Positions 42,402 to 60,893 of a DNA stretch of 64,000 nt are shown in pieces (position 1 is the stretch's first letter; every line of letters begins with the position of its first letter). Below the pieces are notes generated by a model. That model was not told where the DNA came from. It did no database searches and saw only the letters and a program-made list of their open reading frames with translations. Position numbers and translations under genes: made by a program. Source of the DNA: Lysobacter oculi (GTDB lineage Bacteria; Pseudomonadota; Gammaproteobacteria; Xanthomonadales; Xanthomonadaceae); NCBI RefSeq assembly GCF_003293695.1, contig NZ_CP029556.1, forward strand, positions 1,374,001 through 1,438,000. The letters run 5' to 3'.

Positions 42402-42472
42402 CGGAATCCCCGGCAGTGGCTCGAAAACAAGAACGGCGCAACCCGGAGGCCGCGCCGTCTAGTCCACGTATG

Positions 42473-42519
42473 TGGTGGGCGGTACAGGGTTCGAACCTGT
42501 GACCCCTACCATGTCAAGG
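42473..42519. repeat. attL: 47-bp tRNA-Val 3' end repeat, left copy
   Basis: On the minus strand this reads CCTTGACATGGTAGG..., then the T arm and ACCGCCCACCA, i.e. anticodon loop (GAC) to CCA of tRNA-Val. It is identical to 59069-59115. The bases beyond 42519 are not a tRNA 5' half, so this is only a fragment. Confidence 0.92.
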
Positions 42520-42603
42520 ACGGGAAATGGCGTCCGCATACATTCATACCTTCCGTATGTATTTGTTCTGTATGCGCACGAACCCCTAGACATCCGCATA
42601 TGC

Positions 42604-42622
42604 TTTCCGTACTTTTTCCGTA
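42604..42622. repeat. Integrase arm-site candidate, left copy
   Basis: TTTCCGTACTTTTTCCGTA holds two TTTCCGTA units 11 bases apart. The same 19 bases occur at 59002-59020 near the other end. A further TTCCGTA is at 42551-42557. Repeated short sites on both sides of the core are typical of tyrosine-integrase attachment regions. Confidence 0.65.
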
Positions 42623-42654
42623 CTCCCCTTGAAGCACGCGGAACGCACTACCTC

Positions 42655-43809
42655 ATGGCGGATCTTAGTACCGTACGCAATCGTGATCGGCTGCAGCCTC
42701 AACGCGAGCCTTATTGGCACAAGCTGGCCACTGGACAGTTCCTCGGATTCCGTCCATCGAAGATCGGAAAGGGAGGCACGTGGATCGCCCGCTACTACGA
42801 CCCGGACACGGGCCGAAAGCCCTTGAGGGCGTTGGGTGATTTTGGCCATCTGACCGACAGCGAACGCTTCAGCGCAGCATCGCAGCAGGCACGGGACTGG
42901 TTCCGGCACCTTTCGCACGGCGGATCCGAGGAGGATCTCACGGTCAAGCAAGCTTGCGAGAAGTACGCAGCCTCCAACGCAGATGCCGCCAAGCGTTTTC
43001 CCAGGTACGTCTATGACGACCCGATCGCCAGCATCAAACTCCAGAAATTACGCGAACACCACGTTCGGGAGTGGCGCCGCCGGCTGGAAAAACTGCCTGC
43101 GGTAGTCAGCCGCACGAAAGACGACAAGACCACCACTCGCCAGCGGTCAGCAGCCACCATCAATCGCGATATGGTCGCCCTCCGTGCCGCTCTCAATGCT
43201 GCTTTTCGCCGGGGAGAGGTGACCACTACGCTTGCCTGGCAACAGGCGATGAAGCCGGCCGAGGCACGAGGCAGGCGTCATTTGTACTTGGACAAGAGCC
43301 AGCGTCGAGCGCTACTCGACGCACTTGGCGAGGATCCCGTGGCTGCAGCATTTTGCCGCGGACTTTGCCTGCTGCCTATCCGGCCAGGCGCGCTTGCGGC
43401 TCTGCGGGTAGGCGACCTCGACCAACGCGCGAAGACGCTACTCATCGAGCACGACAAGGCGAATGCAGACCGGCGCATCCTGCTACCTGACGCTACCGCT
43501 GAACTGCTCGGGTCTATGGCAGGAAAGAGGAAAGCCAATGCCCCGCTCTTTGACCGCGGCAGCGGTCGCGCCTGGGACAAGGATGCTTGGAAGGGGCCCA
43601 TCAAGAAGGCGGCCAAGACCGCCAACCTGTCGCCCGAGACAACCGCCTACACGCTTCGTCATTCCACGATTACGGACTTGGTCACCGAAGGTTTGGACTT
43701 GCTGACGGTGGCGCAGATCAGTGGCACGAGTGTTCGCATGATCGAGAGGCATTACGGCCACTTGCGCAATGATCGTGCCGCTGCTGCCTTGGCTGGCTTG
43801 GCCCTGTGA
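42655..43809 (+). CDS. Tyrosine recombinase / integrase
   Basis: A 384-residue integrase. It has an N-terminal arm-binding region, a SAM-like core-binding domain and a catalytic domain with the arginine in LLPIRPGALAALR, LRHS (box II), and the nucleophile tyrosine in MIERHYGHL. The H of the usual HxLRH motif is a tyrosine here (YTLRH). A longer reading from 42472 would start MVGGTGFEPVTP, which is just antisense tRNA translated; the ATG at 42655 is the real start. It lies beside attL and is probably the enzyme that inserted the element. Confidence 0.93.
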   Translation: MADLSTVRNRDRLQPQREPYWHKLATGQFLGFRPSKIGKGGTWIARYYDPDTGRKPLRALGDFGHLTDSERFSAASQQARDWFRHLSHGGSEEDLTVKQACEKYAASNADAAKRFPRYVYDDPIASIKLQKLREHHVREWRRRLEKLPAVVSRTKDDKTTTRQRSAATINRDMVALRAALNAAFRRGEVTTTLAWQQAMKPAEARGRRHLYLDKSQRRALLDALGEDPVAAAFCRGLCLLPIRPGALAALRVGDLDQRAKTLLIEHDKANADRRILLPDATAELLGSMAGKRKANAPLFDRGSGRAWDKDAWKGPIKKAAKTANLSPETTAYTLRHSTITDLVTEGLDLLTVAQISGTSVRMIERHYGHLRNDRAAAALAGLAL

Positions 43810-44396
43810 GCAGCCACGACCTGACGATCGACCAGTTGGTGGAGATCTTTTGCTTGCGCCCAAGCTGGACGCTCACCAAATCGTTGGCGGCCGCGCTGAA
43901 GTGTTCCATTGACCAATCGATCAACGCCAAAGACAGCCGGACTCGAAAGAAGCACGAGGCGAGAGTCTCAGCGTTTTATCGGGGATGCTCCCGTACACGA
44001 CCCGTCGAACTGCGCGCTGCGGACTGGCTCGAGGCATTCCCGCGGTTCTCGACAGACAGCCACCTCCCATCCGCTGCGTTGAAGCTGAGGTCATTGATGA
44101 TTCAGAAGGCCATAGAAACGAGCCGACCTCTCCCCTCAAGAAAGCGTCCTCCCTCTCCATCTGAAGCTCGAGCGCTACTGGAAATGATCGAAGTACCCAA
44201 GTCGACCACCGAGATGACGAATGGTCACCCTACCTTTCGCGCCATAGTTAAGCGAAACGGCTGGGAGCGCCAACTCAAAGATGCGTTGTTGCGCGCCGGA
44301 TATACCGAAGATCAAGCCTTTACGCTGCAACGCGACGGCATGCGCACGCGAAGGGGGGCTGCAAAAAAACCGGCAATTGGTACCGGCGACGACTAA
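43806..44396 (+). CDS. Hypothetical protein, coupled to the integrase gene
   Basis: A 196-residue protein I do not recognise. It starts with GTG overlapping the integrase stop. It is mostly helical in character: an N-terminal block with SWTLTKSLAAALKCSIDQSINAKDSRTRKKHEARV that may contain a helix-turn-helix, a basic linker (SRKRPPSPSEAR) and a C-terminal helical part (GWERQLKDALLRAGYTEDQAF). Context suggests an accessory regulator of the element; this is inference only. Confidence 0.65.
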   Translation: MSSHDLTIDQLVEIFCLRPSWTLTKSLAAALKCSIDQSINAKDSRTRKKHEARVSAFYRGCSRTRPVELRAADWLEAFPRFSTDSHLPSAALKLRSLMIQKAIETSRPLPSRKRPPSPSEARALLEMIEVPKSTTEMTNGHPTFRAIVKRNGWERQLKDALLRAGYTEDQAFTLQRDGMRTRRGAAKKPAIGTGDD

Positions 44397-44460
44397 CTCT
44401 GGGCCTACCAATCTGGGCTCCGAAGGTCCGAGCAACACCGCACGGGCCAGGAGAATCAAC

Positions 44461-44679
44461 ATGACCAGCAGTCTAGTCCCTCGCCTATTCGCAGGCTTGG
44501 TGGAAGCAACCGCCGCCCGAAACATCTCACGCACTGTAGCGTTCGAACTTGCGCAATCTGGCATGCTTGAAACGTTCAAGCTCGGCAATCGACGCTACGT
44601 CTACATAGACTCGCTTGACACGCTAGGCGCCCGCGTCACAGATGGTAGTGAGCAGGAGACTGCGAATCATGGCCGCTGA
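44461..44679 (+). CDS. AlpA-like DNA-binding regulator / excisionase
   Basis: A 72-residue protein with an AlpA/Xis-type helix-turn-helix: ARNISRTVAFELAQSGMLETFKLGNRRYVYIDSLDTL follows the pattern of a MerR-like winged helix used by excisionases and AlpA regulators. An AGGAG lies upstream of the ATG. It sits between the integrase-side genes and the primase gene, where P4-like elements keep such regulators. The downstream primase ATG overlaps its end by 11 bases. Confidence 0.8.
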   Translation: MTSSLVPRLFAGLVEATAARNISRTVAFELAQSGMLETFKLGNRRYVYIDSLDTLGARVTDGSEQETANHGR

Positions 44680-47026
44680 TGATTCGCTGCGATCCTCCAT
44701 CCAACCGAGCCGGAACCACTCAGGACACACGCCTCACCACGGCGAGCCTTCCGGCGCGACACCTGCGACCCCAGCCGCCCAAGCCATCGCCTTCGCAAAG
44801 GCGATTGATCCGGATGCTTCCCAGTTCGAATTTCGAACGTTTGCAGAGACTGGTCGCAACGGCCCGGCAGGAAAGCATCGCAAAGGGGTTACCGAGCTCG
44901 CCGCATTCCTGATCTGGTGCGACGAACAAGGTCGCGCAGCCTTCATGGTGATCAATGAGGGAGGGCAAGACGATGCAAGCATCAATCGCGTACGCGCACA
45001 CTTCGTCGACATCGACAGGAAGGATTTCGAGAGCGACGAAGCATGCGAACGTGCCATTCGATTCGCTTTGGAGGGCCGGCACCACGATACGGATCCGATG
45101 CCGCCCGATTGGCCTGCACCCTCCATCGTGGTCAGTAGTGGCGGCGGCGGCGCACACGCGTACTGGTTGGTAAAGAACTGCGAGCCGGCGCTGTTCACCA
45201 AAATCCAGCGAGAGCTTGCCCGTAAGTTCAACGGTGACGCCTCCTGCTCCAACCTATCGCGTGTGATGCGAGTCCCTGGATCCATCCATCGCAAGGGATG
45301 GCCCACGCCAGTCGAGTTAGTCGCCTGTAATCCGGCCCGGCGTTACACGTTGGAGCAACTGAGACATGGGCTGTCCTTAAACATTGTTGCGGATCAATCT
45401 GAGCGTCAGCCGGCCGTGTGCGACGCTGACCCCTCGGACGACCCCGTTCTACGAGTCATTGGTCCGTACATCAAAGCGGACGGACGTACCGGCCCTCACT
45501 CCCGGGTCGACGTCATCTGTCCCAATCACTCCAATCACTCCCTCCCGGACGGTCTCAGCTCAACGGTCTACATGCCTCATGGCTACAACGGAAGGGCACG
45601 CGGCTTCCGCTGCCTGCATGGCGGATGCGTCGAAGTGACGCTGAAAGACTTCTTGACGTTTGTCGGTTACTCCGATGAAGAAAATTGCCCCAACTTCAAC
45701 TCCGACGACGGCCTCGCCTGTCGCTTTGTTAATTGGCTCGATGGACGCGCAATGTATAGCCGGGGGATGTGGTACGTCTGGCAGAACTCTCACTGGCTGG
45801 AAGATTCAACCGAAATCAGGCGTCTTCTCAAGACTTTTGCGAAAGAGCTCAGCCTTGAAATTGGAAGGCGGTATGGCGCGGCCGCTGGTGGCGGTGATTC
45901 TGCAGCGAAGACGAGACTGAAGACCAGTTACAAGCTGCTCGATGTCAGGAAGCAGGAGGATGTGCTCAAGGCCGCTGCCGTAATGCTTACCATTTCTGAA
46001 GGCGAGTTGGATGCAGTTCATTGGTCCCTCTCGACACCTAACGGAGAGGTGGATCTGCGCACCGGCACCCTTTCAACCGCCGCCCCCATGACTCGGTCCA
46101 CTAACTGCACCTCTGTTCCCTACTCGTCTGATGCAGATTGCCCGCGCTGGCGCCAGTTTCTTAGGGAGATCTTTGTAACTGACGAGGTAATTTCGTACGC
46201 CCAACGATTTTTTGGCTATGCGCTCACTGGCGAAACTAGGGAGGAGACGATGCTGGCCGGCTATGGATGCGGCGCCAACGGAAAAAGCGTATTCGCTGAA
46301 GCCATTCGATCCGTGCTGGGAACTTATGTAGTTACTGCTGATCCATCGGTAATCACTGCCGGCACTCGCCAGTCTGGCGCTGCAAGTCCAGACACAGCGC
46401 GACTGGTCGGCAAGCGTCTGGCTTTGCTCAATGAGTCCCGTCTTGGCGACAAGCTCGACGACGGAATGATCAAGAAGCTCGTCTCCATCGAAAAAATGGC
46501 TGCCCGCCGACTCTACGGAAACCCCTTCGAGTTCACGCCCACCGCCAAGTTATTCCTGCGAACTAACAACAAACCACAAGTTCATGACGGCTCGGATGGC
46601 ATGTGGCGTCGCCTGCAACTCCTCCCGTTCGAACGGCATTTTCCGCGGGCCAGTCGCGACCCCCAGCTGCTGGAGAAGCTCCTGGAGGAATGTGAGGGAA
46701 TTCTGAGTTGGATGGTCCAAGGTGCCGTCGACTGGTACCGGACCGGTCTTAGGCCACCGGCCATCGTCAAAGAGGCCACTAAAGCCTACCGCGCCGAATC
46801 CGACACGCTAGGCGAGTGGTTGTCGGACCGCGTCGAACATGGCGGTTTCACCCCCACTGCGGCGCTCTTGCACGATTACGTCCGCTACACCGGTGTCAAA
46901 CAGCCAGTGTCAGTGCAAGCATTCGCTCGCGCACTTGCCGCGCATGGCTTCAGCCCCCATCGAACTCAGCACAGTCGAGGGTTCAAAGTGACACTGAAAA
47001 CGATCACCGCAACAGACTTCGTGTAA
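44669..47026 (+). CDS. P4-type primase-helicase
   Basis: A 785-residue replication protein. The N-terminal part (to about residue 240) resembles a primase-polymerase (FVDIDRKDFESDEACERAIRF, SGGGGAHAYWLVKN). A zinc-finger-like stretch with FRCLHGGCVE lies near residue 320. The C-terminal half is a D5/P4-type superfamily III helicase with Walker A GCGANGKS (about residue 535) and an FLRTNNKP sensor motif, as in phage P4 alpha and poxvirus D5. It probably starts autonomous replication of the excised element. GC content is lower than in the core genes. Confidence 0.88.
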   Translation: MAADDSLRSSIQPSRNHSGHTPHHGEPSGATPATPAAQAIAFAKAIDPDASQFEFRTFAETGRNGPAGKHRKGVTELAAFLIWCDEQGRAAFMVINEGGQDDASINRVRAHFVDIDRKDFESDEACERAIRFALEGRHHDTDPMPPDWPAPSIVVSSGGGGAHAYWLVKNCEPALFTKIQRELARKFNGDASCSNLSRVMRVPGSIHRKGWPTPVELVACNPARRYTLEQLRHGLSLNIVADQSERQPAVCDADPSDDPVLRVIGPYIKADGRTGPHSRVDVICPNHSNHSLPDGLSSTVYMPHGYNGRARGFRCLHGGCVEVTLKDFLTFVGYSDEENCPNFNSDDGLACRFVNWLDGRAMYSRGMWYVWQNSHWLEDSTEIRRLLKTFAKELSLEIGRRYGAAAGGGDSAAKTRLKTSYKLLDVRKQEDVLKAAAVMLTISEGELDAVHWSLSTPNGEVDLRTGTLSTAAPMTRSTNCTSVPYSSDADCPRWRQFLREIFVTDEVISYAQRFFGYALTGETREETMLAGYGCGANGKSVFAEAIRSVLGTYVVTADPSVITAGTRQSGAASPDTARLVGKRLALLNESRLGDKLDDGMIKKLVSIEKMAARRLYGNPFEFTPTAKLFLRTNNKPQVHDGSDGMWRRLQLLPFERHFPRASRDPQLLEKLLEECEGILSWMVQGAVDWYRTGLRPPAIVKEATKAYRAESDTLGEWLSDRVEHGGFTPTAALLHDYVRYTGVKQPVSVQAFARALAAHGFSPHRTQHSRGFKVTLKTITATDFV

Positions 47027-47244
47027 TCCATTTTGGGAAATCCTATTCCGCGATGACTGGAGAGACAGTTTGACGGCTTCTCAGCAAACGTCTTGGGGAA
47101 TTGTCATCTTAGAAGACTTTCAAGAACGTGAGTCAGCACCGTCAGTTGCCGCCAAATCAGAACCACACCAATGACTTATGCGTGACCAAACTCGGTCATC
47201 CCAGCGACGAAACCGTCACACGACAAGCGAACAAGGATGCGGGC

Positions 47245-47538
47245 ATGGGGAACACGACGTTCTGGAATGCAGAAAAGCGCCAGCGGAGTGCCGCAATGCG
47301 GGCTTATCGAGAGCTGTGGCGAGGATTGCCGCTGGACGTGCAGTGGAAAATGGAATGTTTCGTCTATGCGCAACGCGGCGCTGGCCGGCTTGATTCCACC
47401 ATTCGGCGGGAGCTTTGCGATTGGCTCGACGCGATGCGGCCATGGCAGGCGACGGACGCGAAACTGTTGCGGATGTGGCGCACAAGACAGCGGGACGTCG
47501 AGTTGCTAAGGTCCTCTTTCCACTCACGTTCGGTTTAG
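47245..47538 (+). CDS. Hypothetical small protein in the integrated element
   Basis: A 97-residue protein (start MGNTTFWNAEKRQRSAAMRAYREL) rich in Arg, Trp and Leu. AAGGA about eight bases upstream supports ATG 47245; a GTG at 47128 would add 39 residues of low-complexity lead. No motif recognised. Between the primase and the methylase operon it may be an accessory gene of either. Reality of the gene is moderately supported. Confidence 0.5.
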   Translation: MGNTTFWNAEKRQRSAAMRAYRELWRGLPLDVQWKMECFVYAQRGAGRLDSTIRRELCDWLDAMRPWQATDAKLLRMWRTRQRDVELLRSSFHSRSV

Positions 47539-47995
47539 TGGAAGAGGCTGACTGGATCTAACCCCTCGACCAATGCCACTAGAACACCTATGCCTCTCAC
47601 GGCATCATGGAACTCGGCCGCAGGATCTACCGCCAAGAGTTATACGGCATCACGTGCGGGACTTACTATCTATGATCGCGCGATCGTGTCCCGTGCAAGT
47701 TGCATCAGGCTCAGCGGGACTTTGTCTTACCTCCTGCGACGCATAGGAGCAACCATTAGCCTCGTAGCAGCTATTTGCCACCTAGCGCACAACGCCTTAC
47801 CACTCTACTGGCGACATTGTGGCGAGGTTAGTGATGCCATCACCGAGTTGCCAGCGACCTCTGTCGTAGTGTTGGCTCAGATATGATCTCCGAGACTCGC
47901 TGCTGACTTTTTTAGTAGGAGTTGTCACAATGCAAAAACTCAGATAAGCCCTTAGCAACTCGCCTCATCAGATAAGAACGGACGGGATTAGGTCG
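47539..47995. other. 457-base gene-poor spacer before the methylase operon
   Basis: Lower in GC than its surroundings and without a convincing gene. An open frame at 47590-47886 has no ribosome site or recognisable product. At 47930-47947 there is a five-codon mini-ORF (MQKLR) with AGGAG ten bases upstream, 48 bases before the methylase ATG. The operon promoter is presumably in this stretch, but I cannot place it. Confidence 0.5.
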
Positions 47996-49372
47996 ATGAG
48001 AACTACTAGTGCGGCTTTCCGTTTCGTCGACCTTTTCGCCGGGCTGGGCGGCTTCCACGTCGCCCTTGACGAGTTGGAGGGTCGTGGCGTGTTCGCGGCT
48101 GAATGGGACCCCACACTTAGACGTCTCTACAAAGTCAACTTTGGCATCGATGCTTGGGGTGACCTTAATGAACTCAGCAGCGATGAGATCATCACGCACA
48201 CCGTGCCAGATCACGACCTCCTAACGGCGGGTTTCCCATGCCAACCGTTCTCAAAGGCTGGAGACCAGTTGGGCTTCAAGGATACGAATCAGGGCAATCT
48301 TTTCTTCAAGGTGCACGACATCTTGCGCGTCAAAAAGCCGCGACACTTCATTTTGGAGAACGTACCCAACATTCTTAAGCACAACGGTGGGCGCACCAAG
48401 ACAAAGATCTTGCGGATGTTGAAAGAGCTGGGCTACTCCGTCGGTGTTCAGCACTTCTCGCCTCACGAATTCGGCATCCCGCAGGTGCGAGACCGTGCCT
48501 ACTTCGTTGGTTCACTTGAGGGACTCGACCATTTCGAGTGGCCCGACAAGCGCAAGGAACCCACAGAGATTCATCGGGTACTTCGTCACGACGTACCTTC
48601 GAGGCGTGCCATTCCAGAACAGACATTGCGAGCCATCGACATGTGGGGAGACTTCTTGCAGCGCTCCCCCGCTACACTGAAGCTGCCTTCGTTCCCCATC
48701 TGGTCGATGGAGTTCGGCGCGACTTACCCCTACGAGGATGAAACTCCGTCAGGAGTATGGGCTCGCAGACCTGTCTGGGGGCTTCGTCAGATGGGCTTAA
48801 AGGGCAGCTTCGGCCAATCTCTCGATTGCACGATCGAGGAACAGATGAGGAGAATACCGAGCCACGCCAATCGAGAAGGCGACTTCCTTTTCCCGCAGTG
48901 GAAGCGCACTTTCATCAGGCAAAATCGTGAGTTTTATCAAGCCAACCGCTCTTGGATTGATCCCTGGTTAGCGCGATGGAGGCCTCAAGAGTTCTACTCA
49001 AGCTTCCAGAAGATGGAGTGGAATGCCCAAGGTGAAGACCGGGACATCGATAACTTCGTGCTACAGATGCGTGCTTCTGGGCTGCGGGTCAAGCGCCCCA
49101 CAACCTCCCCAAGCCTGATTGCATTTACAGAGACTCAAGTACCTATCCTTGGCTCTAATCTGACCGGTAAACGTCGCTATATGACACCGGCCGAATGCGC
49201 CGAGCTTCAATGCCTCGGCAGCATCAAGTTGCCCGCGTCCGACCTCGACGCATATAAGGCATTAGGCAACGCAGTCAACGCCCGTGTAGTCAAAGCCATC
49301 GCGGAACGACTCTTGTATGGACCCGCCGCGAGCATTTCCTCTGAACTCGAACCGTTGGGAGCTACTGCGTGA
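47996..49372 (+). CDS. C5-cytosine DNA methyltransferase
   Basis: A 458-residue m5C methylase with the family motifs: I FVDLFAGLGGFH (residues 11-21), IV GFPCQPFS with catalytic Cys82, VI ENVPN (121-125), VIII QVRDRAYFVG and X YKALGNAVN near the C-terminus. The target-recognition region between VIII and X is long, from about 170 to 390. The target sequence is unknown. It heads a four-gene operon: its stop overlaps the DUF262 start. In such operons the methylase is expected to mark host DNA. Confidence 0.95.
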   Translation: MRTTSAAFRFVDLFAGLGGFHVALDELEGRGVFAAEWDPTLRRLYKVNFGIDAWGDLNELSSDEIITHTVPDHDLLTAGFPCQPFSKAGDQLGFKDTNQGNLFFKVHDILRVKKPRHFILENVPNILKHNGGRTKTKILRMLKELGYSVGVQHFSPHEFGIPQVRDRAYFVGSLEGLDHFEWPDKRKEPTEIHRVLRHDVPSRRAIPEQTLRAIDMWGDFLQRSPATLKLPSFPIWSMEFGATYPYEDETPSGVWARRPVWGLRQMGLKGSFGQSLDCTIEEQMRRIPSHANREGDFLFPQWKRTFIRQNREFYQANRSWIDPWLARWRPQEFYSSFQKMEWNAQGEDRDIDNFVLQMRASGLRVKRPTTSPSLIAFTETQVPILGSNLTGKRRYMTPAECAELQCLGSIKLPASDLDAYKALGNAVNARVVKAIAERLLYGPAASISSELEPLGATA

Positions 49373-51270
49373 CCGACCGTATTGAACATGAAGACGACGA
49401 CTTAGACCAAGAGGACCCACGCACCACGCTGTGGGAGGGTATAGCCAACGCGATCGCTACCCTTTCGGATGCAACTGACACGCCAACTGGAGTGAGGGCA
49501 GCATCCTCCTCTATCCACATCGATGACATCGACATGACGTCTGATTCGTGGATGCCGCAACTCGCGCAGGTCCAGGACTGGCTCAATCTCGGTGTTTCGC
49601 AAAGGCTCCCCGATGCCGGACGCGATGCCTTTCTTGCCGGGCTGATCTCCGGACTCGAACTTGACAGCAGTGAGGCCATTGATAACTCAGTCTCTCCGAG
49701 CCAACTCACACCGCTTGCTTTGGAGCGCCTGAGCCAGCGAATTGAGTTCGCAGTGCGCCTGCAGAAAGCGTTCACGGAGGAGATGGAGTCCGACGGCGTA
49801 ACGCGCGCCTCGGCTACGAGCAACTGGGCGAATGCTTGGGAGGAGTCCGATCCGGGCTCCCACCAACTCAGCACCGAGCCTGTCACCGCCACTGCCGACG
49901 TGGTCTCCATTAACGAGCTCACCACCTCGGACCTAAACCTGACGCCCTCCTACCAGCGTGGTGATGTCTGGAGCACGAACGATCGGCAGGCCCTCATCGA
50001 GTCGGTTCTCCGAGGCATTCCGCTCCCATCGATCATTCTGCGCGAGGTGGGACCCTCTGATCCCCAGGAGGTCGTCGATGGCAAGCAGCGCCTGACCGCA
50101 CTTTTGCGCTTTGTAGGCAGCCATCCGGCGGCTCTCGAAAAGGTGCACGCAGCAGATACACGTCACGCCGGTCATGACCTGCTGAAACACTTCAAGGAGG
50201 ACTATCCGCGTTTCAAGAGGGCATGGAAAACCCTAGAGGGCGAGAGCCTGACCGCCGCGCTGGAGAACGTCTACTACTTCCCCTTTAAGCTCCGTAACAA
50301 CGACACTGGTGGACTGAAGGGGCTCGCACTTGAGGATCTACAAGGAAAGTACTACACGCAAATCCTCAAGAACGTCATTAAGGTTGCAGGGGCCGAGATG
50401 ACCGTGGAAAAGCTGTTCACAAAGACCACCGCGTACAAGGTGCCTGTGATCCGCTACACGCAGGCTGACCCACGCCAGATCCATGACGTCTTCAAGCTAT
50501 ATAACAAGCAGGGCGTCCACCTCAATGCCGAGGAGATCCGCAACGCCGCCTTCCACGAGATTGAACTTACCGCGGCCATCCTGACAGCGGCTGGCGATGC
50601 TGACCCGCGCGTGGACGCCGCGGACATAGCCCCATCGTTGGCCCAGGTGCCCAATTTCAAAACGATCGCGGAGTCCTTGTCGGGCTACGGCATCGGACGT
50701 GCTCGATATCGGCGCACGAAGATTCTCTCTTGGATCCTGTCAGTTTTGCTGCTCGACACTAGGGGCCAGAAGGTCAAGAGCACTGCTCGTCACATCGATG
50801 AATTCATGACCAGAGTTCTAGACGACATCCAAGATCCGCTGCGCAGTAGGCAGGTCTTGACTGACCTGTTTGACTGGCTAACGAAGGCATTCGACCTCCA
50901 TGCCCGCCACCCCGAGATTTGGTCGGAGAAGTTCATGGACGGCGGCAGGGGCGCCAAGTGGCAGGAACTGCAACTCGTCGGCTCCATGGTCGGTTTAGCC
51001 TTCGCTCTCGCGGCGTCCCCCGACGACGTAGAGGACCGGATCGCGCAGAATGCTGACGACATCTTGTCCGCAACAAGCAGCGACGCGTGGAAACGAATCG
51101 ATAAAGCACAGACCAAGACCCAGTGGGACTACATCGCTCGAATCGCCAAGGGCGTGCTCACACTACTGGATCTTGACCCTGGCCACGCATCAGAGGCTGT
51201 CCGGGATCGCTTCGGGTCGTCGGGCTACGAGTCCCTTGAGGGCACGATCCTTCTGGAGGGGGATCGGTAA
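49369..51270 (+). CDS. DUF262 (ParB/Srx-like) protein of the methylase operon
   Basis: A 633-residue protein. The DUF262 core has SYQRGDVWSTNDRQALIESVL (Tyr-Gln-Arg at 195-197), GIPLPSIIL, VVDGKQRLTALLRF (DGKQR at 237-241) and FKLYNKQGVHLNAEEIRNA. A roughly 180-residue N-terminal extension with an acidic start is unrecognised. DUF262 domains share a ParB/Srx fold and, in GmrSD and BrxU, cleave NTPs to drive nucleases. No C-terminal DUF1524/HNH nuclease is seen. The GTG at 49369 overlaps the methylase stop by four bases. Confidence 0.88.
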   Translation: MTDRIEHEDDDLDQEDPRTTLWEGIANAIATLSDATDTPTGVRAASSSIHIDDIDMTSDSWMPQLAQVQDWLNLGVSQRLPDAGRDAFLAGLISGLELDSSEAIDNSVSPSQLTPLALERLSQRIEFAVRLQKAFTEEMESDGVTRASATSNWANAWEESDPGSHQLSTEPVTATADVVSINELTTSDLNLTPSYQRGDVWSTNDRQALIESVLRGIPLPSIILREVGPSDPQEVVDGKQRLTALLRFVGSHPAALEKVHAADTRHAGHDLLKHFKEDYPRFKRAWKTLEGESLTAALENVYYFPFKLRNNDTGGLKGLALEDLQGKYYTQILKNVIKVAGAEMTVEKLFTKTTAYKVPVIRYTQADPRQIHDVFKLYNKQGVHLNAEEIRNAAFHEIELTAAILTAAGDADPRVDAADIAPSLAQVPNFKTIAESLSGYGIGRARYRRTKILSWILSVLLLDTRGQKVKSTARHIDEFMTRVLDDIQDPLRSRQVLTDLFDWLTKAFDLHARHPEIWSEKFMDGGRGAKWQELQLVGSMVGLAFALAASPDDVEDRIAQNADDILSATSSDAWKRIDKAQTKTQWDYIARIAKGVLTLLDLDPGHASEAVRDRFGSSGYESLEGTILLEGDR

Positions 51271-51277
51271 GCTCGTC

Positions 51278-54082
51278 GTGTTACCGCCATTGACCGAGAA
51301 CGTTTACTTCTATCCGCCCGCCCCGTCTGCGGTGGATTCTTGGTGGTCTCGCTACGCCAGCCAGTTGCAGGACCTCAGCACTACTGCCCGCGCCGCCGTA
51401 GAGGCCGACAGCCGTTATATCCTCGAGCGCGGCATCTTAGGCGCCGGCGAGCCCGGTCCGCATACGTGGCCCACGAGACGCGTCCGTACAGGTCTAGTCA
51501 TGGGCTCGGTCCAATCCGGCAAGACTGCCTCTATGCTGGGGGTATCCGCGCTGGCGATGGACCAAGGTGTCGACATCGTCGTATTGCTCGCTGGCACCCG
51601 GCTGTCACTCTGGCGCCAGACCTACGGTCGGGTGCTAGAGCAACTCGACTCGGGGCCGGACGACGCCGGAAAGCGGTCGCGGCGCATTCTCTGTCCTGCA
51701 GCGGCACTCGCGCTCTCTGAGGCAAACGTGCCATTGAGTCGGATCTATAGCCTCCTGCCGGCCACCGTAAAGCAGAGACTGTCCCAGAGACGCCCCATCA
51801 TTTTGATCGCCATGAAGCAGACGAACCACTTGCGGGCGCTCGGCGAAAACCTGCGCAAGAGTCTCTTCGGCGCGGTGAGGGAACTCAACCGTCCCGTGCA
51901 TATGCTGGTTCTCGATGACGAAGCCGACGACGGCTCGATCCTCGACGCGGTTGTCGAAGTATCCGAGGACCCGGTTTATGGGAATCTCAAACAGATCCCA
52001 CGTGTTATCGCCAACCTGTGGGAACCGCCGCAAGGGTCCCCTGACAACTTATTCGCGACTTACATCGCCTATACGGCGACGCCCCAGGCCAACCTTCTTC
52101 AGGAGGACCATAACCCCCTAGCGCCGCGCGACTTCATGATCTCTCTTCGCACTCCGCTCGACATGGGCCATTCGGTAGACACAACTGCCCCTGGCAACCT
52201 CACCGCTCCTCGTTCATCAACCTACCCCGAGCCTCTCGGAATACGGTCTTACTACACTGGCGGTGAGGTTTTCTACCGTCGAGGCGAGGCGGCAGGGCTG
52301 TGTGTGCCCACGACAAATACGCAACAGGACCTAGCTGACGCTGTTAGAGCCTTCTTGGTGGCGGGCGCCATCCGCCTGCACCGCTCAGGCAAGCTCGGCC
52401 CGAAGTCTGCAATCACAGCTAGGTTTAACACCAAGGACGAAGCCCATGCCAGCGCGGCTCCGCCGCATTCGATGCTCTACCACCCTTCAGCAGGAATCCA
52501 AGACCACTTCCGAGGCGCTGAGGAGGTGCTGCTCTGGGCCGGGATCCAAGACCGCGCCGAGGCTCGGAATCTGCTGAACGAAGGAGATGCTAGGCTCCCC
52601 AACACACTGGTGAACGACCTGCAGGCGGATCCCGCACCGTGGGTGGAATGGCTTGACAAGTATGTCGCCTCTGCCGCCGCAATCGAGGACGAGTTCGATT
52701 GCCTGCCGCGGAAAACCTTCCCGGACTGGCAAACTGTCGAAACACTGCTTATCGATGAGGTGATCCCAGGGACAAGGGTCGCCGTGGTCAACAGCGACCC
52801 TACCGCTGATGACCGCCCTGCCTACGCACCGAGTCAAGACCCAAGTACCTGTATGTGGAGCGCCGCTCGTGACCTCAGCACGATCTTCGTATCAGGGAAC
52901 GTCATGGCACGTGGACTGACGCTGGAAGGAATGACTACAGCGTTGTTCCAACGCTCATCAGCTAACCCGTTGGCCGACACACAAATGCAGATGCAACGCT
53001 GGTTTGGATACCGCGGGTCCTACATAGAACTCTGCCGCATCTTCGCGTCCCGCAACCAACTTGACCTCTTCCGCGCCTACCACGATGTCGACGAAGCAGT
53101 TCGCACTGCTATCACCGAGCGCATGATGTGCGGCGCCCCTGAACCAACGGTTCTGCAGGGTGTCAACTTCCAAGCTACCGGCAAGATAGCGAGCGTTGGC
53201 AATCTTCCCCTTTCTCCTGGCGCCCGTCCTTTCGTTACAGTCATCAATGAAGGCCATCACCCAGACCCCAATACAGCGGTCTTGGCAGACTTCTTCGCCC
53301 GTCCATCCAGCGATGTTACGGTTTCCAACGTGCTGCGAGGCCGGATCCTGAACGTGCCACTCGAACTTGCCGAGGCTGCAGAACTTTTGGACCGCCTCGC
53401 CTTCTCCAGATACCAGCCCGGGTGCGAGGGTTTACATGCGGACCTCTGGAGCCGCGTTGAAGCCCGAGCACACGCAGTCTCCCCCATCCCGGAACCGCCT
53501 TTCTATCGACCGCCCGTGAGGCATGGGAAGGGACATGTACCCCGCCACGCCTGCCCCTATGCTATAGCCGCCTACCTTCGACTCTGGTCGGCGAGCCTTA
53601 CTCGCTCGATTACGGGACTTTTTATCACTGGCCAACCCGGCGAGCTATGGTCCTACGCCGACCTCAATCGCAAGAAAGCTGGGCAGCCACGGTTCTGGGT
53701 TGGCATTCGCTACGGAGATGGTGTTGCCGTGTCCAACGGTCCGCTGTCACAGCTACCGTTCCAAATCCGCACCACCAACAAGAGGGTAGTTAGGGGCGAG
53801 CTCAAGACAACTTGGGGAGCTAGCGATCCGAACGCTGGCACGGGCCAGTATCGCGGGGACGTGTACTTCGATTACTACCACCGCAAAACGGCAGTGCCGC
53901 CGAACAGCAACACAGCCTGGCGACCCAGCGGCTCCGACGGTCAGATCCTCTTTTATGTCAACCAACATCCGGACGACTTGCACCCGACCGTGGCAGTTGG
54001 AGTCTGTCTCCCTGCGGGAGGCCCCGAACAGTTCTCGGCTACCCGTGCCGGGATGTCCATCGTCTCGAGGAGCCTCTCATGA
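51278..54082 (+). CDS. Z1-domain P-loop ATPase/helicase-like protein
   Basis: A roughly 934-residue protein (GTG at 51278, eight bases after the DUF262 stop; the frame has no better start). It has Walker A GSVQSGKT (76-83), the DExD-like box VLDDEADDGS (about 211-220), YTATPQANLL (motif III-like) and the Z1 block RGLTLEGMTTALFQRSS with QMQRWFGYRG (motif VI-like). Z1 proteins are superfamily II ATPases found in restriction-like operons with DUF4420 and a C5 methylase. Its stop overlaps the next ATG (ATGA). It is probably the motor of the system. Confidence 0.88.
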   Translation: MLPPLTENVYFYPPAPSAVDSWWSRYASQLQDLSTTARAAVEADSRYILERGILGAGEPGPHTWPTRRVRTGLVMGSVQSGKTASMLGVSALAMDQGVDIVVLLAGTRLSLWRQTYGRVLEQLDSGPDDAGKRSRRILCPAAALALSEANVPLSRIYSLLPATVKQRLSQRRPIILIAMKQTNHLRALGENLRKSLFGAVRELNRPVHMLVLDDEADDGSILDAVVEVSEDPVYGNLKQIPRVIANLWEPPQGSPDNLFATYIAYTATPQANLLQEDHNPLAPRDFMISLRTPLDMGHSVDTTAPGNLTAPRSSTYPEPLGIRSYYTGGEVFYRRGEAAGLCVPTTNTQQDLADAVRAFLVAGAIRLHRSGKLGPKSAITARFNTKDEAHASAAPPHSMLYHPSAGIQDHFRGAEEVLLWAGIQDRAEARNLLNEGDARLPNTLVNDLQADPAPWVEWLDKYVASAAAIEDEFDCLPRKTFPDWQTVETLLIDEVIPGTRVAVVNSDPTADDRPAYAPSQDPSTCMWSAARDLSTIFVSGNVMARGLTLEGMTTALFQRSSANPLADTQMQMQRWFGYRGSYIELCRIFASRNQLDLFRAYHDVDEAVRTAITERMMCGAPEPTVLQGVNFQATGKIASVGNLPLSPGARPFVTVINEGHHPDPNTAVLADFFARPSSDVTVSNVLRGRILNVPLELAEAAELLDRLAFSRYQPGCEGLHADLWSRVEARAHAVSPIPEPPFYRPPVRHGKGHVPRHACPYAIAAYLRLWSASLTRSITGLFITGQPGELWSYADLNRKKAGQPRFWVGIRYGDGVAVSNGPLSQLPFQIRTTNKRVVRGELKTTWGASDPNAGTGQYRGDVYFDYYHRKTAVPPNSNTAWRPSGSDGQILFYVNQHPDDLHPTVAVGVCLPAGGPEQFSATRAGMSIVSRSLS

Positions 54083-55155
54083 CAAGTTACGAAGAAGTTT
54101 TGAATCAGATTAGCGCCGTCCCTGCGGGCATGACAGGAGATGACCGAACAATTACGTGGTTAACCGACATGCAGGTAGTCGGTATCGCTCGAGACAGCCA
54201 TGGACACCTGGAACTATTTCTTGCAGGCGACAGATTGCAGCCTCGGACTAACACCGTGAAGTCTGCAATTCATTATCATTCGTGGCACCGCAACACCCAG
54301 CCTCCACTGAGCGCCAACCGCATCCGCTTACCGGCTCTAGGGCACTTCGACCAAGTCGGTGCATTCATCGCAGTTGAATTGTTGCGCGAGAACGCTGACG
54401 AAAATCTTGAGCGCGCCTTCGCCGCCACCGAGCCCCTGATCGAACTCGCCATCAAACGCTTGGAGATTTCCGAGAACGCGGTCCTCGGCCTTGTCGGCGA
54501 ACTACTCCTTCTCGACGCTCTCTGTCGTTGTGCACACGATGTCCACGTCGGGCTGGTCATTCAGGCTTGGGATGGCTGGCGCCGCTCTGCAAGAGACTTC
54601 ACGTGGGAGGGCACAGGCGTTGAGATAAAGACCACAACTCGGAGCACATCAAGTCACGCCATCCATGGCATCCACCAGATAGAGCCTACCCCTTCAAGTG
54701 ATGACTGTCCCGGGGAAGCACGCCTGCTGCTCGTAAGCATCGGTCTAAATCAAGCAGATCCCCACGCGCCCGCCTTGTCGATCCCCTCTCTGGTGGAAAG
54801 CATCGTCGAGCGACTCACAGCAACAGGGGCCCACAGCTTTGTCGAGGAGTTCCTTAAGCGCGTTGCCATGTACGGCTCAGAGTCGGGAATCGGATACGAG
54901 CATGCCAGGATGTCCAAAGAGGTGCCGTTTACCACCCCTTTCACCGTGACCTTCGTTCGCAGCTACGACATGGCGGACCCAGCCATCGAGGTCCTGCGGC
55001 GCGATGAGGTTGTTACCTATCACCACGTGGACGCTAAATCGCTCACTTTCCGCGTGGAGCTTCCCGCGACGATTAGCTTGGACAATCCCGTCGCAGGTTC
55101 CAGGCGCGTTGCGGAGGCGATTCTGGGGCTGCACAGGTTGGTACCCACGAACTAG
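54079..55155 (+). CDS. PD-(D/E)XK-motif nuclease-like protein (DUF4420)
   Basis: A 358-residue protein. The nuclease core is recognisable: GLVGELLLLDAL with Glu141, then RDFTWEGTGVEIKTTTR with Asp173 and the E-I-K triad (Glu182-Lys184). This is the DUF4420 form of the PD-(D/E)XK fold. It probably supplies the DNA-cutting activity for the operon. It is the last gene of the operon; the IS21 element starts 85 bases after its stop. Confidence 0.88.
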   Translation: MTSYEEVLNQISAVPAGMTGDDRTITWLTDMQVVGIARDSHGHLELFLAGDRLQPRTNTVKSAIHYHSWHRNTQPPLSANRIRLPALGHFDQVGAFIAVELLRENADENLERAFAATEPLIELAIKRLEISENAVLGLVGELLLLDALCRCAHDVHVGLVIQAWDGWRRSARDFTWEGTGVEIKTTTRSTSSHAIHGIHQIEPTPSSDDCPGEARLLLVSIGLNQADPHAPALSIPSLVESIVERLTATGAHSFVEEFLKRVAMYGSESGIGYEHARMSKEVPFTTPFTVTFVRSYDMADPAIEVLRRDEVVTYHHVDAKSLTFRVELPATISLDNPVAGSRRVAEAILGLHRLVPTN

Positions 55156-55232
55156 TATCCTCATCAGAACGCATTGCAAAATTGATACGCTCAAATACGG
55201 CAATGCAGTCCGCACTTGGTCGAGTATTTGAG

Positions 55233-55240
55233 ATCTCCTG
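55233..55240. repeat. Target-site duplication of the IS21 insertion, left copy (ATCTCCTG)
   Basis: ATCTCCTG abuts the left terminus of the IS21-family element and is repeated at 57707-57714. Confidence 0.93.
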
Positions 55241-55314
55241 TGTTGATTTCCACGCAAAACTGAGCCGGGATTTCCATCCAAAATTGAGCCACCCGGTTGC
55301 GGGGTGAGCTTAGC

Positions 55315-56088
55315 TCAGGGATGCGGTTGAGTGGTGGCGGACTCCTTGTTGACGGCGGTGGTGTGGTGCCGGAAGCGGTAGCTGTCGTTGCCGGTCTCGA
55401 TGATGTGGCAGCGGTGCGTGAGGCGGTCGAGCAAGGCCGTGGTCATCTTGGCGTCGCCGAAGACGTTGGCCCACTCGGCGAAGCTGAGGTTGGTGGTGAT
55501 GGCGAGACTGGTGTGTTCGTAGAGCTTGCCGATCAGGTGGAACAACAAGGCGCCACCGGCTTGCGAGAACGGCAGGTAGCCCAGTTCATCGAGGATGACC
55601 AGATCGGCGCCGATCAAGCGGTCGGCCAGCTGGCCCTGTTTGCCGGCGGCCTTCTCCAGTTCCAGTGTGTTGACCAGCTCAATGGTCGAGAAGAAGCGCA
55701 CGCGACGCTGCTGGTGCTGCACGGCCTGCACGCCGAGGGCGGTGGCCAGGTGAGTCTTTCCGGTGCCGGGACCACCGACGAAGACCAGGTTCTGGCGTGC
55801 GTCCATGAAGTGCCCGCCATGCAGTTGCCGTAGCAGCGGTTCATCGACGGCACTTTGGCCGAAGTCGAAGGTGCTCAGGTCGCGGTAGTGCGGGAAGCGG
55901 GCCGCCTTGAGCTGGTACTGGATGGAGCGCACTTCCCGTTCGGCAACCTCGGCCTTGAGCAGGGCGTCCATCAGCGGCAAGGCATCGCGGCAGGCCGGGC
56001 TGCCTTGCTCGACCAGTTCCTGCAACGCCTGCGACATGCCGTGCAGGCGCAGGTGCTTGAGCGTGGACAACAGGCCATCAGGCTGCAT
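55315..56088 (-). CDS. istB: IS21 helper ATPase IstB
   Basis: A 257-residue DnaC-like AAA+ ATPase with Walker [12 protein letters not shown] and Walker [13 protein letters not shown], followed by the [10 protein letters not shown] sensor region. IstB assembles on target DNA and stimulates the IstA transposase. The ATG at 56088 is inside the end of istA (11-base overlap). The longer open frame upstream (to 56412) is istA read in another frame. Confidence 0.95.
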
Positions 56089-57604
56089 GGCGTGCCCTCC
56101 GCAAGTGGTCGTAGCGGGCCATGTCGGCCACCGGCTCGACCTGCAAGGCCAGCGTCGGTGGCGTACTGACCGGCGCCGGCGGCGCTTCCCCAAGCAGGCG
56201 GCTGAGCACGTTGAGGATGTGCTGCTTGTTGGCCGCGCCACTCTCCAGCGCCAGTTCCACCGCGGTGAGCACGGCCTGCTCGTCGTGGCGCAGGACCAGG
56301 GCAAGGATCTCGACCATCTCCTTGTCGCCGCCGGGGCGCTGCAGCAACTGCTGTTGCAGGGTGCGGAAGCCGTCCGGCAGTTCCAGGAAGGGCGCGCCGT
56401 TGCGCAACGCACCCGGCTTGCGCTGGGCCACGCTCAGGTAGTGCCGCCAGTCGTAGAGCGTGCGGCCACCGTCGTGGGAGCGGTGGATGCAGCGGACATG
56501 CTCGGCAATCTTCTGGCCTTCGGCCACGAACACCACGCGCGCCGGATACAGGCGCACGCTGACCGTGCGCCCGGCGAAGCTGGCCGGCACGCTGTAGCGG
56601 TTGCGCTCCACGTGGACCAGGCAGGTCGGCGTGACCCGCTTGGTCTGTTCGACGAAGCCGTCGAACGGCACCGGCACCGGCATCAATGCCGGCAGTTCGT
56701 CCTGCAGGACCTCGGCGATCCTGCGGGGCCGCTGCTCCGGATGGGGCAGTGCCTGCCACAGCGCCTTGCAGCGCTCCTCCAGCCAGGCGTTGAGTTCGTC
56801 CAGGTGCTTGAAGTGCTGCGGCACGGCGGGCCAGACGCGCCGGCGTGCGTCCTGCACGTTCTTCTCGATCTGTCCCTTCTCCCAGCCGGAGGCCGGGTTG
56901 CAGAACTCCGCCTCGAACAGGAAGTGGCTGACCATGGCTGAGAACCTGGCATTGACGCTGCGCCGCTTGCCGGCATGGACCTTGTCCACCGCCGTCTTCA
57001 TGTTGTCGTAGATGCCCCGCCGCGGCACGCCACCGAACACGGCAAAGGCGTGGTTGTGGGCATCGAACAGCATCTCGTGGGTCTGCTTCCAGTAGGCGCG
57101 CAGCAGGAATGCCCGACTGTGGCTGAGCTTGAACTGCGCGACCTGCAGCTTCACCTTCTCGCCGCCAATGCGCACCCAGTCCTCGCTCCAGTCGAACTGG
57201 AACGCCTCGCCCGGCGCGAAGACCAGCGGTACGAAGGCCTTGCGGGGTGCAGTGAGCAGGCGTTCGTGCTCGGCGCGGTGCCAGTCGCGGGCGAAGGCCG
57301 CCACGCGGTTGTAGGAGCCCGGATAGCCCACCGCCACCAGCCGAACGTGCATCTCGCGCACGCTCATCTTCTGCTTGCGCGGAGCCGACTGGCTGCGCCA
57401 CAGCATCGCCCGCAGTTGCTCGGCGTACGGGTCTAGCTGGCTCGGGGTCTGACGCGGGGGATACTTCGGCTCGACCTCGCCGCTGGCGAGGTACTTGGTG
57501 ATGGTGTTGCGCGAGAGCTTGGTGCGACGGGATATCTCCCGGATCGGCATCTTCTCGCGGAAATGCCAGCGGCGGATGAGGCTCAGAACGTCCATCTTGA
57601 TCAC
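56078..57604 (-). CDS. istA: IS21 transposase IstA
   Basis: A 508-residue transposase. It has an N-terminal helix-turn-helix ([25 protein letters not shown]), a DDE integrase core with [25 protein letters not shown] and [15 protein letters not shown], and a C-terminal beta and helical domain. Length fits IS21 IstA (about 500-520). No stops or shifts break it. Confidence 0.95.
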
Positions 57605-57706
57605 TCCTGGTGGCTCCGGTCAGGGCAGACCGGAAGGCTAGGAGGTGGCTCAAGATTGGACGGAAATCCGCTGGGTTAGTGGCTCAGTTCTGGATGAAAC
57701 TCAACA

Positions 57707-57714
57707 ATCTCCTG
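57707..57714. repeat. Target-site duplication of the IS21 insertion, right copy (ATCTCCTG)
   Basis: Identical to 55233-55240, abutting the right terminus. The 210 bases from 57715 to the next gene end at 57925 hold no gene I can support. Confidence 0.93.
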
Positions 57715-57924
57715 GGCCGGCTGACCCGAAGCATCCAACTCCTAATGTCCTGAGAGGTATTCGTATAGGGAGTTGAGAATGCATTGCTCGAAGAATGCGT
57801 TCGTCATGATTTCCCCACTAATCGCTAGCGTATGAATTCGCGTCAGCGCAGCGAAAAACTTACCTCAAAGCATGACTTAATCGCCGGGTGAGTTCGGCAC
57901 GAAGCCGCTGCGCCTGGGCTGTTT

Positions 57925-58365
57925 TTACCGTTGGCGCCCCAAGACGTCGCGCCACATATAGTTGAGGGCTACCTCTCGGCTCATCACCCAACGACGATCC
58001 ATTTCTACGTAGGCCGCCATCATTTCACCGTAGTAACGCGCCAACTCTTCATCCGAACCCTCGTACAGCGCTCTTCCGTAGAGGATGCATGCATTTGCAT
58101 AAGTAACCGTGCAACGCCTTATATCTTCCTCGACCTTGTATAGCCATGCCATGGCATCGTCATAGATTCCTTGATTGTTTCTGGGGGATTGCTGTATCCA
58201 GGCGTGACCGCATTCCACGCACTTCATTGTAGGGTTAGCTTGATCCACTACGCAGCCGCCCAAAACTACAAGCCCGCGACTGGCCGCACGTTCAAGTTCC
58301 GGCCCGGGCTTTCCGTAAGCAATTGGAACGGTGCACAAGCTTGAGCATTGGGGACACGCGATCAT
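57925..58365 (-). CDS. Zinc-ribbon hypothetical protein
   Basis: A 146-residue protein with two separated CxxC pairs, MIACPQCSSL at the start and TMKCVECGHAW near residue 50, that can form one zinc ribbon. Between them is IAYGKPGPELERAASRGLVVLGGC. The C-terminal part is helical with many aromatic residues (YEGSDEELARYYGEMMAAYVEMDRR). Related short zinc-ribbon proteins are found across proteobacteria, with no function known to me. Near the right end of the integrated element, on the opposite strand from the operon. Confidence 0.75.
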   Translation of the reverse strand: MIACPQCSSLCTVPIAYGKPGPELERAASRGLVVLGGCVVDQANPTMKCVECGHAWIQQSPRNNQGIYDDAMAWLYKVEEDIRRCTVTYANACILYGRALYEGSDEELARYYGEMMAAYVEMDRRWVMSREVALNYMWRDVLGRQR

Positions 58366-58664
58366 GGAGTTCTCCTACATCTGCAAAGGGCTGCGGTTTT
58401 GGCCATCATGGAAAGCGCAGCATAGAGCTATCAACAGCCAGAAGTAGCGCCACGACGCGCTAGGCCTCTAAACAGCCATTGAAGCCTAGGGAATCGTCCA
58501 ACTTGCCTCCAGACTAGAAGTGAATATCGATACTTCGCAATGAGGCCGGGCACCAGTACCGGGTACAGGGGGTACTGTCGTGTGACCTCGGCTCTTGCTC
58601 GAATGCCACGAAGAGTATGATGCTGGGGACTTCGCAGCCCATCAGCTATGAGGTGCCGCTCGCC

Positions 58665-58943
58665 ATGCCTAAATACGCGCCTGCATCCTTGGAATCCTGT
58701 GTTGCTTGCAGGCAACAGAAAGACAATTGCGGAATCCTGGTCAATCTTTCGGATCAACACTATTTATGCGAGAAATGCATTGAGGTGTGCGCAGAGATTG
58801 CCACCCAGCGGGGCTACCCTCCAGACTTGGTCTGTATTCCTCGATCCGAACTAGAGACCCTCAAGGCAAAGGCCGCAAATTCCGCCAGGCTCCGGGCGCT
58901 TGAAGAGCTTCTTGCGCGCCACTTCAGCACCCCAATCCGCTGA
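58665..58943 (+). CDS. Small protein with a ClpX-type C4 zinc finger
   Basis: A 92-residue protein. Residues about 11-43 match the N-terminal zinc-binding domain of ClpX: CVACRQQKDNCGILVN then YLCEKCIEVCAEIA, with four cysteines as C-x2-C...C-x2-C. The remainder is helical (LETLKAKAANSARLRALEELL). In ClpX this domain dimerises and binds adaptors and certain substrates, so a stand-alone copy could modulate ClpXP. That is inference. The ATG at 58665 is preferred; an upstream ATG at 58617 is possible. The 299 bases before it (58366-58664) show no other gene. Confidence 0.75.
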   Translation: MPKYAPASLESCVACRQQKDNCGILVNLSDQHYLCEKCIEVCAEIATQRGYPPDLVCIPRSELETLKAKAANSARLRALEELLARHFSTPIR

Positions 58944-58974
58944 CGATGCCCCCATCCCTACGACGTAGGAAGGA

Positions 58975-59004
58975 AAAAGCCGCCTGATTCCGCAGGCGGC
59001 TTTT
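58975..59004 (+). terminator. Rho-independent terminator at the right end of the element
   Basis: AAAAGCCGCCTG pairs with CAGGCGGCTTTT around ATTCCG, 31 bases past the zinc-finger gene. The symmetric A and T runs let it work in both directions. It touches the arm-site repeat at 59002. Confidence 0.92.
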
Positions 59005-59020
59005 CCGTACTTTTTCCGTA
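59002..59020. repeat. Integrase arm-site candidate, right copy
   Basis: TTTCCGTACTTTTTCCGTA, identical to 42604-42622. It lies 48 bases inside the right 47-bp repeat, on the inner side of the element. Confidence 0.65.
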
Positions 59021-59068
59021 TAACTGATCTTTTTTTCCAGTGAAACAACGATAAGTCGTTGATTTCAT

Positions 59069-59115
59069 TGGTGGGCGGTACAGGGTTCGAACCTGTGACC
59101 CCTACCATGTCAAGG
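59069..59115. repeat. attR: 47-bp tRNA-Val 3' end repeat, right copy
   Basis: Identical to 42473-42519. On the minus strand the sequence upstream of it (59116 on) does not provide the tRNA 5' half, so this too is a fragment and not an intact tRNA-Val. Confidence 0.92.
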
Positions 59116-59272: not shown

Positions 59273-60893
59273 ATGTCTGCTCTCGGCCGAGGCTGTGTAA
59301 AAACTCCCGGGCGCGGTGCTGCCGACGACGATGCAGCCAGTTTGAGCAACCAGCGCTGCAGTAAAAGAACTTGATGCTCAGGCTGCGATGGCCCGCACCA
59401 TGCCCTCGGTGCCCATGATCTTGATCATCCGCTTCATGTTGTAGGCCAGAACTGCCAGGCTGATCTCCGTTTTGACCTTCGGTAGCGTCTTCGTCAGCAA
59501 CGGCGTCGTGCCGAGCCATGATTTCAGCGTGCCGAAGACATGTTCCACCGTCTGCCTTCGCACCACCGCTGTTTGCGGCCTGGCATCCAGCAGCATCTGC
59601 ATTCGTTCGAGCACATGCTCGTGCTCCCATCGTCCGATACGCCTGTAGCTGGCAGTCGTGCACTTCTTCCGGATTGGGCAGCGGGGGCAGGCGGAGGACC
59701 AGTACTTGTGCAAGGTCAGCCCTTTCTCCTCTGTCGTAAAGCGGTGGATCGCCCGTTCGCCCGCCGGACATTCGTACTCATCAGCGGCTTCGTCGTAGAC
59801 GAAATCGCGTTTGTCGAACCGGCCTTCGGCCTTGGCGTTGGATGTCAGAGGCTTGGGTACCAACGGGATGACGCCTGCCTCCTCGCACGCCAGGATCTCC
59901 GGGGCACTGAAGTAACCACGGTCCGCCAGCGCCGTCATATGCTCGGCGCCAAGGGCGTCCTTGGCCTTCATCGCCATGCGTGAGAGTTGCGCACGGTCGT
60001 GACCGTCGTTTGTCACGTCGTATGCCACGATCAGGTGGTGCTTGGCGTCGACCGCCGCCTGGACGTTGTAGCCCACCGTGCCCGTGCCACGGCCACTTGA
60101 GGTCATTGATCTCGCGTCGGGATCCGTCAGCGAGATCTGGTGATCGGGGGTGGCCTCAAGCTGCTTTTCAATCTCGTCGAGCTTCTCCATCTGCGCATGC
60201 AGCTTGGCCAGCTTGTCTCTCAGCTGGGGAACGCGGCCCTCTGGCAACAAAGTGGGATCGCGATCTGACCGGTCCAGCTCGGCTAGGTAACGCGCAACGC
60301 TGTCCTCCAGTTGTTGCCGGCGCCCCTTGATCTTGCCGACGGTGAAGTTGCGATCCCGACTGTTCACTGCCTTCAGCTTGCTGCCGTCAATCGCGACGAT
60401 TGCATGCGAGAAGACCTTCATGTTCCGGCACAGCGCGACGAACCGACTGCACACGGCTGTGATCGCGCCGCCGTTGTCCTTGCGGAAGTCGGCGATGGTC
60501 TTGAAGTCCGGCGCCAGTCGACCGGTCAGCCAGATCAGCTCCAGGTTCCGTTGCGCCTCCCGTTCCAGGCGCCGGCTGGACTGGATGCGAGTGAGGTAAC
60601 CGTAGATGTAGATCTTGAGCAGCGCGGCGGGGTGATAGGCAGGACGGCCACCAGCCCCGCGATTGACCGCCTCGAAGCCCAGCGCGCTCAGGTCGAGCGC
60701 TTCGACGAAGGCATCGACCACCCGCACCGGGTTGTCTTCGTGGACGTAGTCTTCCAGCCGATCAGGGAGAAGAAGCCCCTGGGAACGATCAACGCCTTCC
60801 ACAAATCGCTTCATGTAGAGCACCCATCGACCGGTGCTCAGATCATGCCAGTGGAGGCAGGGTTTTCACACAGCCTCGGCCAGAAGCGGACAT
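59273..60893 (-). mobile_element. IS1182-family insertion sequence
   Basis: A 1,621-bp element with imperfect inverted ends of about 34 bp. Both begin ATGTC(T/C)GCT and share GGCCGAGGCTGTGT followed by an A-rich AAAAC. One transposase gene fills the inside. No convincing target duplication is visible at the outer edges, so one flank may have been rearranged. Its right end is six bases past the ligD stop codon. Confidence 0.85.
59378..60814 (-). CDS. IS1182-family transposase
   Basis: A 478-residue DDE transposase. It has the N-terminal DUF772-like part (LEDYVHEDNPVRVVDAFVEAL, RPAYHPAALLKIYIYGYL), the catalytic residues in VAIDGSK, ALADRGYFS and RQTVEHVFGTLKSW, and a zinc-like C-rich insert (CPRCPIRKKC). 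The ATG at 60814 (MKRFVEG) is preferred to a GTG at 60823. The reading frame is intact. Confidence 0.95.
   Translation of the reverse strand: MKRFVEGVDRSQGLLLPDRLEDYVHEDNPVRVVDAFVEALDLSALGFEAVNRGAGGRPAYHPAALLKIYIYGYLTRIQSSRRLEREAQRNLELIWLTGRLAPDFKTIADFRKDNGGAITAVCSRFVALCRNMKVFSHAIVAIDGSKLKAVNSRDRNFTVGKIKGRRQQLEDSVARYLAELDRSDRDPTLLPEGRVPQLRDKLAKLHAQMEKLDEIEKQLEATPDHQISLTDPDARSMTSSGRGTGTVGYNVQAAVDAKHHLIVAYDVTNDGHDRAQLSRMAMKAKDALGAEHMTALADRGYFSAPEILACEEAGVIPLVPKPLTSNAKAEGRFDKRDFVYDEAADEYECPAGERAIHRFTTEEKGLTLHKYWSSACPRCPIRKKCTTASYRRIGRWEHEHVLERMQMLLDARPQTAVVRRQTVEHVFGTLKSWLGTTPLLTKTLPKVKTEISLAVLAYNMKRMIKIMGTEGMVRAIAA

Follow-up and report, generated by a model that had tools for sequence, protein, structure and literature searches.

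Within a 64,000-nucleotide stretch of the Lysobacter oculi genome (contig NZ_CP029556.1, positions 1,374,001 to 1,438,000; hereafter the window), four adjacent genes for a C5-cytosine DNA methyltransferase, a DUF262 protein, a Z1 motor protein and a DUF4420 nuclease probably encode, as judged from sequence, a restriction-like machine with a putative anti-phage role. In this machine a nucleotide-driven switch protein of another kind, the DUF262 protein, occupies the position of the component expected from known relatives, which have a MutL-like one there. The four-gene set is present in at least five bacterial phyla, and no conserved fifth gene was seen in the operon. The unusual make-up proposed in a preliminary description of this DNA was confirmed, and the conservation of the genes together, on which that proposal hung, was found to hold.

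A DUF262 protein in place of the GHKL ATPase

We found no match to a GHKL ATPase in the window's operon, which has no space for one, and no same-strand match to three GHKL profiles across 78 loci; this comparison of neighbours in other genomes, suggested in the preliminary description, bears out the absence reported there. The DUF262 gene overlaps the methylase gene by 4 base pairs (bp), in agreement with the earlier account. GmrSD_N (PF03235) was detected in all 43 aligned DUF262 members, none of which matched a DUF1524/HNH or GmrSD C-terminal nuclease Pfam model at E values up to 0.01. The AlphaFold2 (AF2) model of the protein (predicted local distance difference test score, pLDDT, 87.3) resembles the core of SspE and BrxU, the nearest solved folds among the matches listed. 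Compared with GmrSD, BrxU and SspE, as presented in excerpts of PMC10952713 and PMC13251355, the protein shares the DUF262 NTPase core, the predicted fold and the DGxQR pocket (DGKQR here, DGQQR in GmrS and SspE; PMC10952713, excerpt), whereas it has no detected DUF1524/HNH nuclease, either on the chain or as a partner, and its N terminus bears an extra helical region of about 165 residues. The earlier view that DUF262 substitutes for the GHKL module as a sensor or NTP switch is thereby supported, not proved.

The nuclease is presumably supplied in trans to the DUF262 protein by DUF4420, alongside the motor protein. The residues previously proposed as a PD-(D/E)XK site, Glu141, Asp173 and Glu182-x-Lys184, are conserved in an alignment of 23 DUF4420 sequences, consistent with that assignment. 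A DUF4420 protein from Aeromicrobium (L070) lacks Glu141 and the ExK motif and is perhaps an inactive nuclease. The motor protein is predicted to adopt a superfamily 2 (SF2) motor fold over residues ~18-623 (AF2 model, pLDDT 84.4), and its residues 567-577 read DTQMQMQRWFG. In the methylase, the Cys82 named earlier was located in a PCQ motif. A DNA methylase is linked in 73 of the 78 loci, as detected by a C5-cytosine profile that other kinds of methylase would escape, and four of the five loci without a match lie at contig edges or, in one case, are truncated.

Relation to known systems

Besides the DUF262 enzymes above, the closest known systems include MZA together with the third type of MORC operon (Iyer, Abhiman and Aravind, 2008; PMC2292703, excerpt), CglI/NgoAVII and an island of Corynebacterium diphtheriae BH8. 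Taking the MZA names as in NCBIfam and PADLOC, and the NCBIfam MzaC and MzaD equivalogs as tests, we found that the nuclease falls below the MzaD cut-off (26.8 bits versus 420) and that a further score in the comparison was 109.3 bits versus 1500. In the paper that described MZA, MzaB is reportedly a GHKL protein and MzaE an AIPR protein; the operon here has no AIPR protein. One genome, Paracoccus litorisediminis (G901), contains both the DUF262 type and the MZA type, on separate contigs (L158 and L221). CglI/NgoAVII restriction-modification comprises three genes with a PLD-B3 nuclease and without DUF262 or DUF4420, as far as the excerpted PMC4267653 describes it, and the Corynebacterium diphtheriae BH8 island has an EcoRII-like nuclease and three unclassified proteins, DUF262 not being named in the excerpted description (PMC5379612).

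The carrying element and its surroundings

The operon lies in an element of ~16.6 kb (42473-59115) bounded by a 47-bp direct repeat (Table 1). Because part of the repeat recurs ~75 kb further on in an intact tRNA-Val(GAC) gene (L256 4698-4772; G000:C1:1507697-1507771), two elements may stand in tandem there. Transposase genes, which we take to be an IS21-like pair and a second transposase, lie downstream of the operon, at and past the right end of the element (55315-57604 and 59378-60823). Five actinomycetotal loci (L151, L185, L191, L210 and L212) have common chromosomal surroundings, in which an nrdR-like gene is visible by eye; this site may be a hotspot for insertion.

Table 1. Features of the operon and its element, in window coordinates
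Feature	Position	Strand	Evidence or remark
Left copy, 47-bp perfect direct repeat, att-like	42473..42519	.	part recurs in tRNA-Val(GAC) gene elsewhere in genome
Tyrosine integrase of element	42472..43809	+	PF00589, E 3e-14
D5/RepB-type primase-helicase of element	44642..47026	+	PF08706, PF19263, PF16793
C5-cytosine DNA methyltransferase, 458 aa	47996..49372	+	PF00145, E 6e-60
Catalytic Cys82 codon of methyltransferase	48239-48241	+	within PCQ
DUF262 (GmrSD_N) protein, 633 aa, GTG start	49369..51270	+	PF03235, E 6e-25
Stretch from DUF262 start into motor gene	49369..51985	+	
DGKQR nucleotide-pocket motif, DUF262 residues 237-241	50077..50091	+	invariant, 43 aligned sequences
Motor gene	51278..54082	+	PF10593, E 1e-27
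Motor-gene site with G76, Q79-T83	51503..51526	+	residues invariant, 48 aligned sequences
Motor-gene site with D213-E215, D217, D218	51911..51931	+	residues invariant, 48 aligned sequences
Motor-gene site	52976..53017	+	within 51278..54082
DUF4420 nuclease gene	54079..55155	+	PF14390, E 6e-18
Right copy, 47-bp perfect direct repeat	59069..59115	.	

Possible modes of action

Where the function of a DUF262 protein is known, it involves the sensing of modified DNA, namely modified cytosine for GmrSD and BrxU, phosphorothioate for SspE and, probably, methylated DNA for Dazbog (PMC10952713, excerpt). Together with the nearest solved folds and the kinds of methylase that our profile would miss, this favours an SspE-like or type IV mode, in which DUF262 would recognise a modified base, whether the methylation mark of the host or a foreign modification, thereby activating motor and nuclease, the methylase making the arming signal or giving partial protection only. 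We consider this unlikely, since a nuclease armed by the mark of its own operon would need a second self/non-self signal. Moreover, the linked methylases diverge widely (to 27% identity with that of the window) and appear to have been swapped on their own in the close pairs L156/L197, L168/L220, L216/L220 and L177/L180, and no site in the methylase, target stretch included, separates the types when the DUF262 cassette differs. Still less probable is an MZA system that has shed MzaB and MzaE and acts by abortive infection; membership in MZA is already contradicted. That an unrelated DUF262 defence gene merely happens to lie next to a restriction-modification-like set is very improbable: DUF262 does occur in several distinct defence systems (PMC10952713, excerpt), and partial DUF262-domain matches were found in 11 further genomes of the 149 searched, but the conservation of the four genes refutes it.

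A more far-reaching and tentative reading, to which we give a probability of 0.45 as a whole, is that the operon represents an ancient, unnamed restriction class, in which an SspE/BrxU-type NTPase sensor would have lost its own nuclease and would command a separate SF2 motor and PD-(D/E)XK nuclease. As part of the same reading, the motor's first RecA lobe together with DUF262 would form a plug-in sensor cassette, which bacteria could exchange as one piece while methylase, motor core and nuclease are retained. A single motor-nuclease chassis could then take either a GHKL/MORC or a ParB/Srx-type NTPase as its switch.
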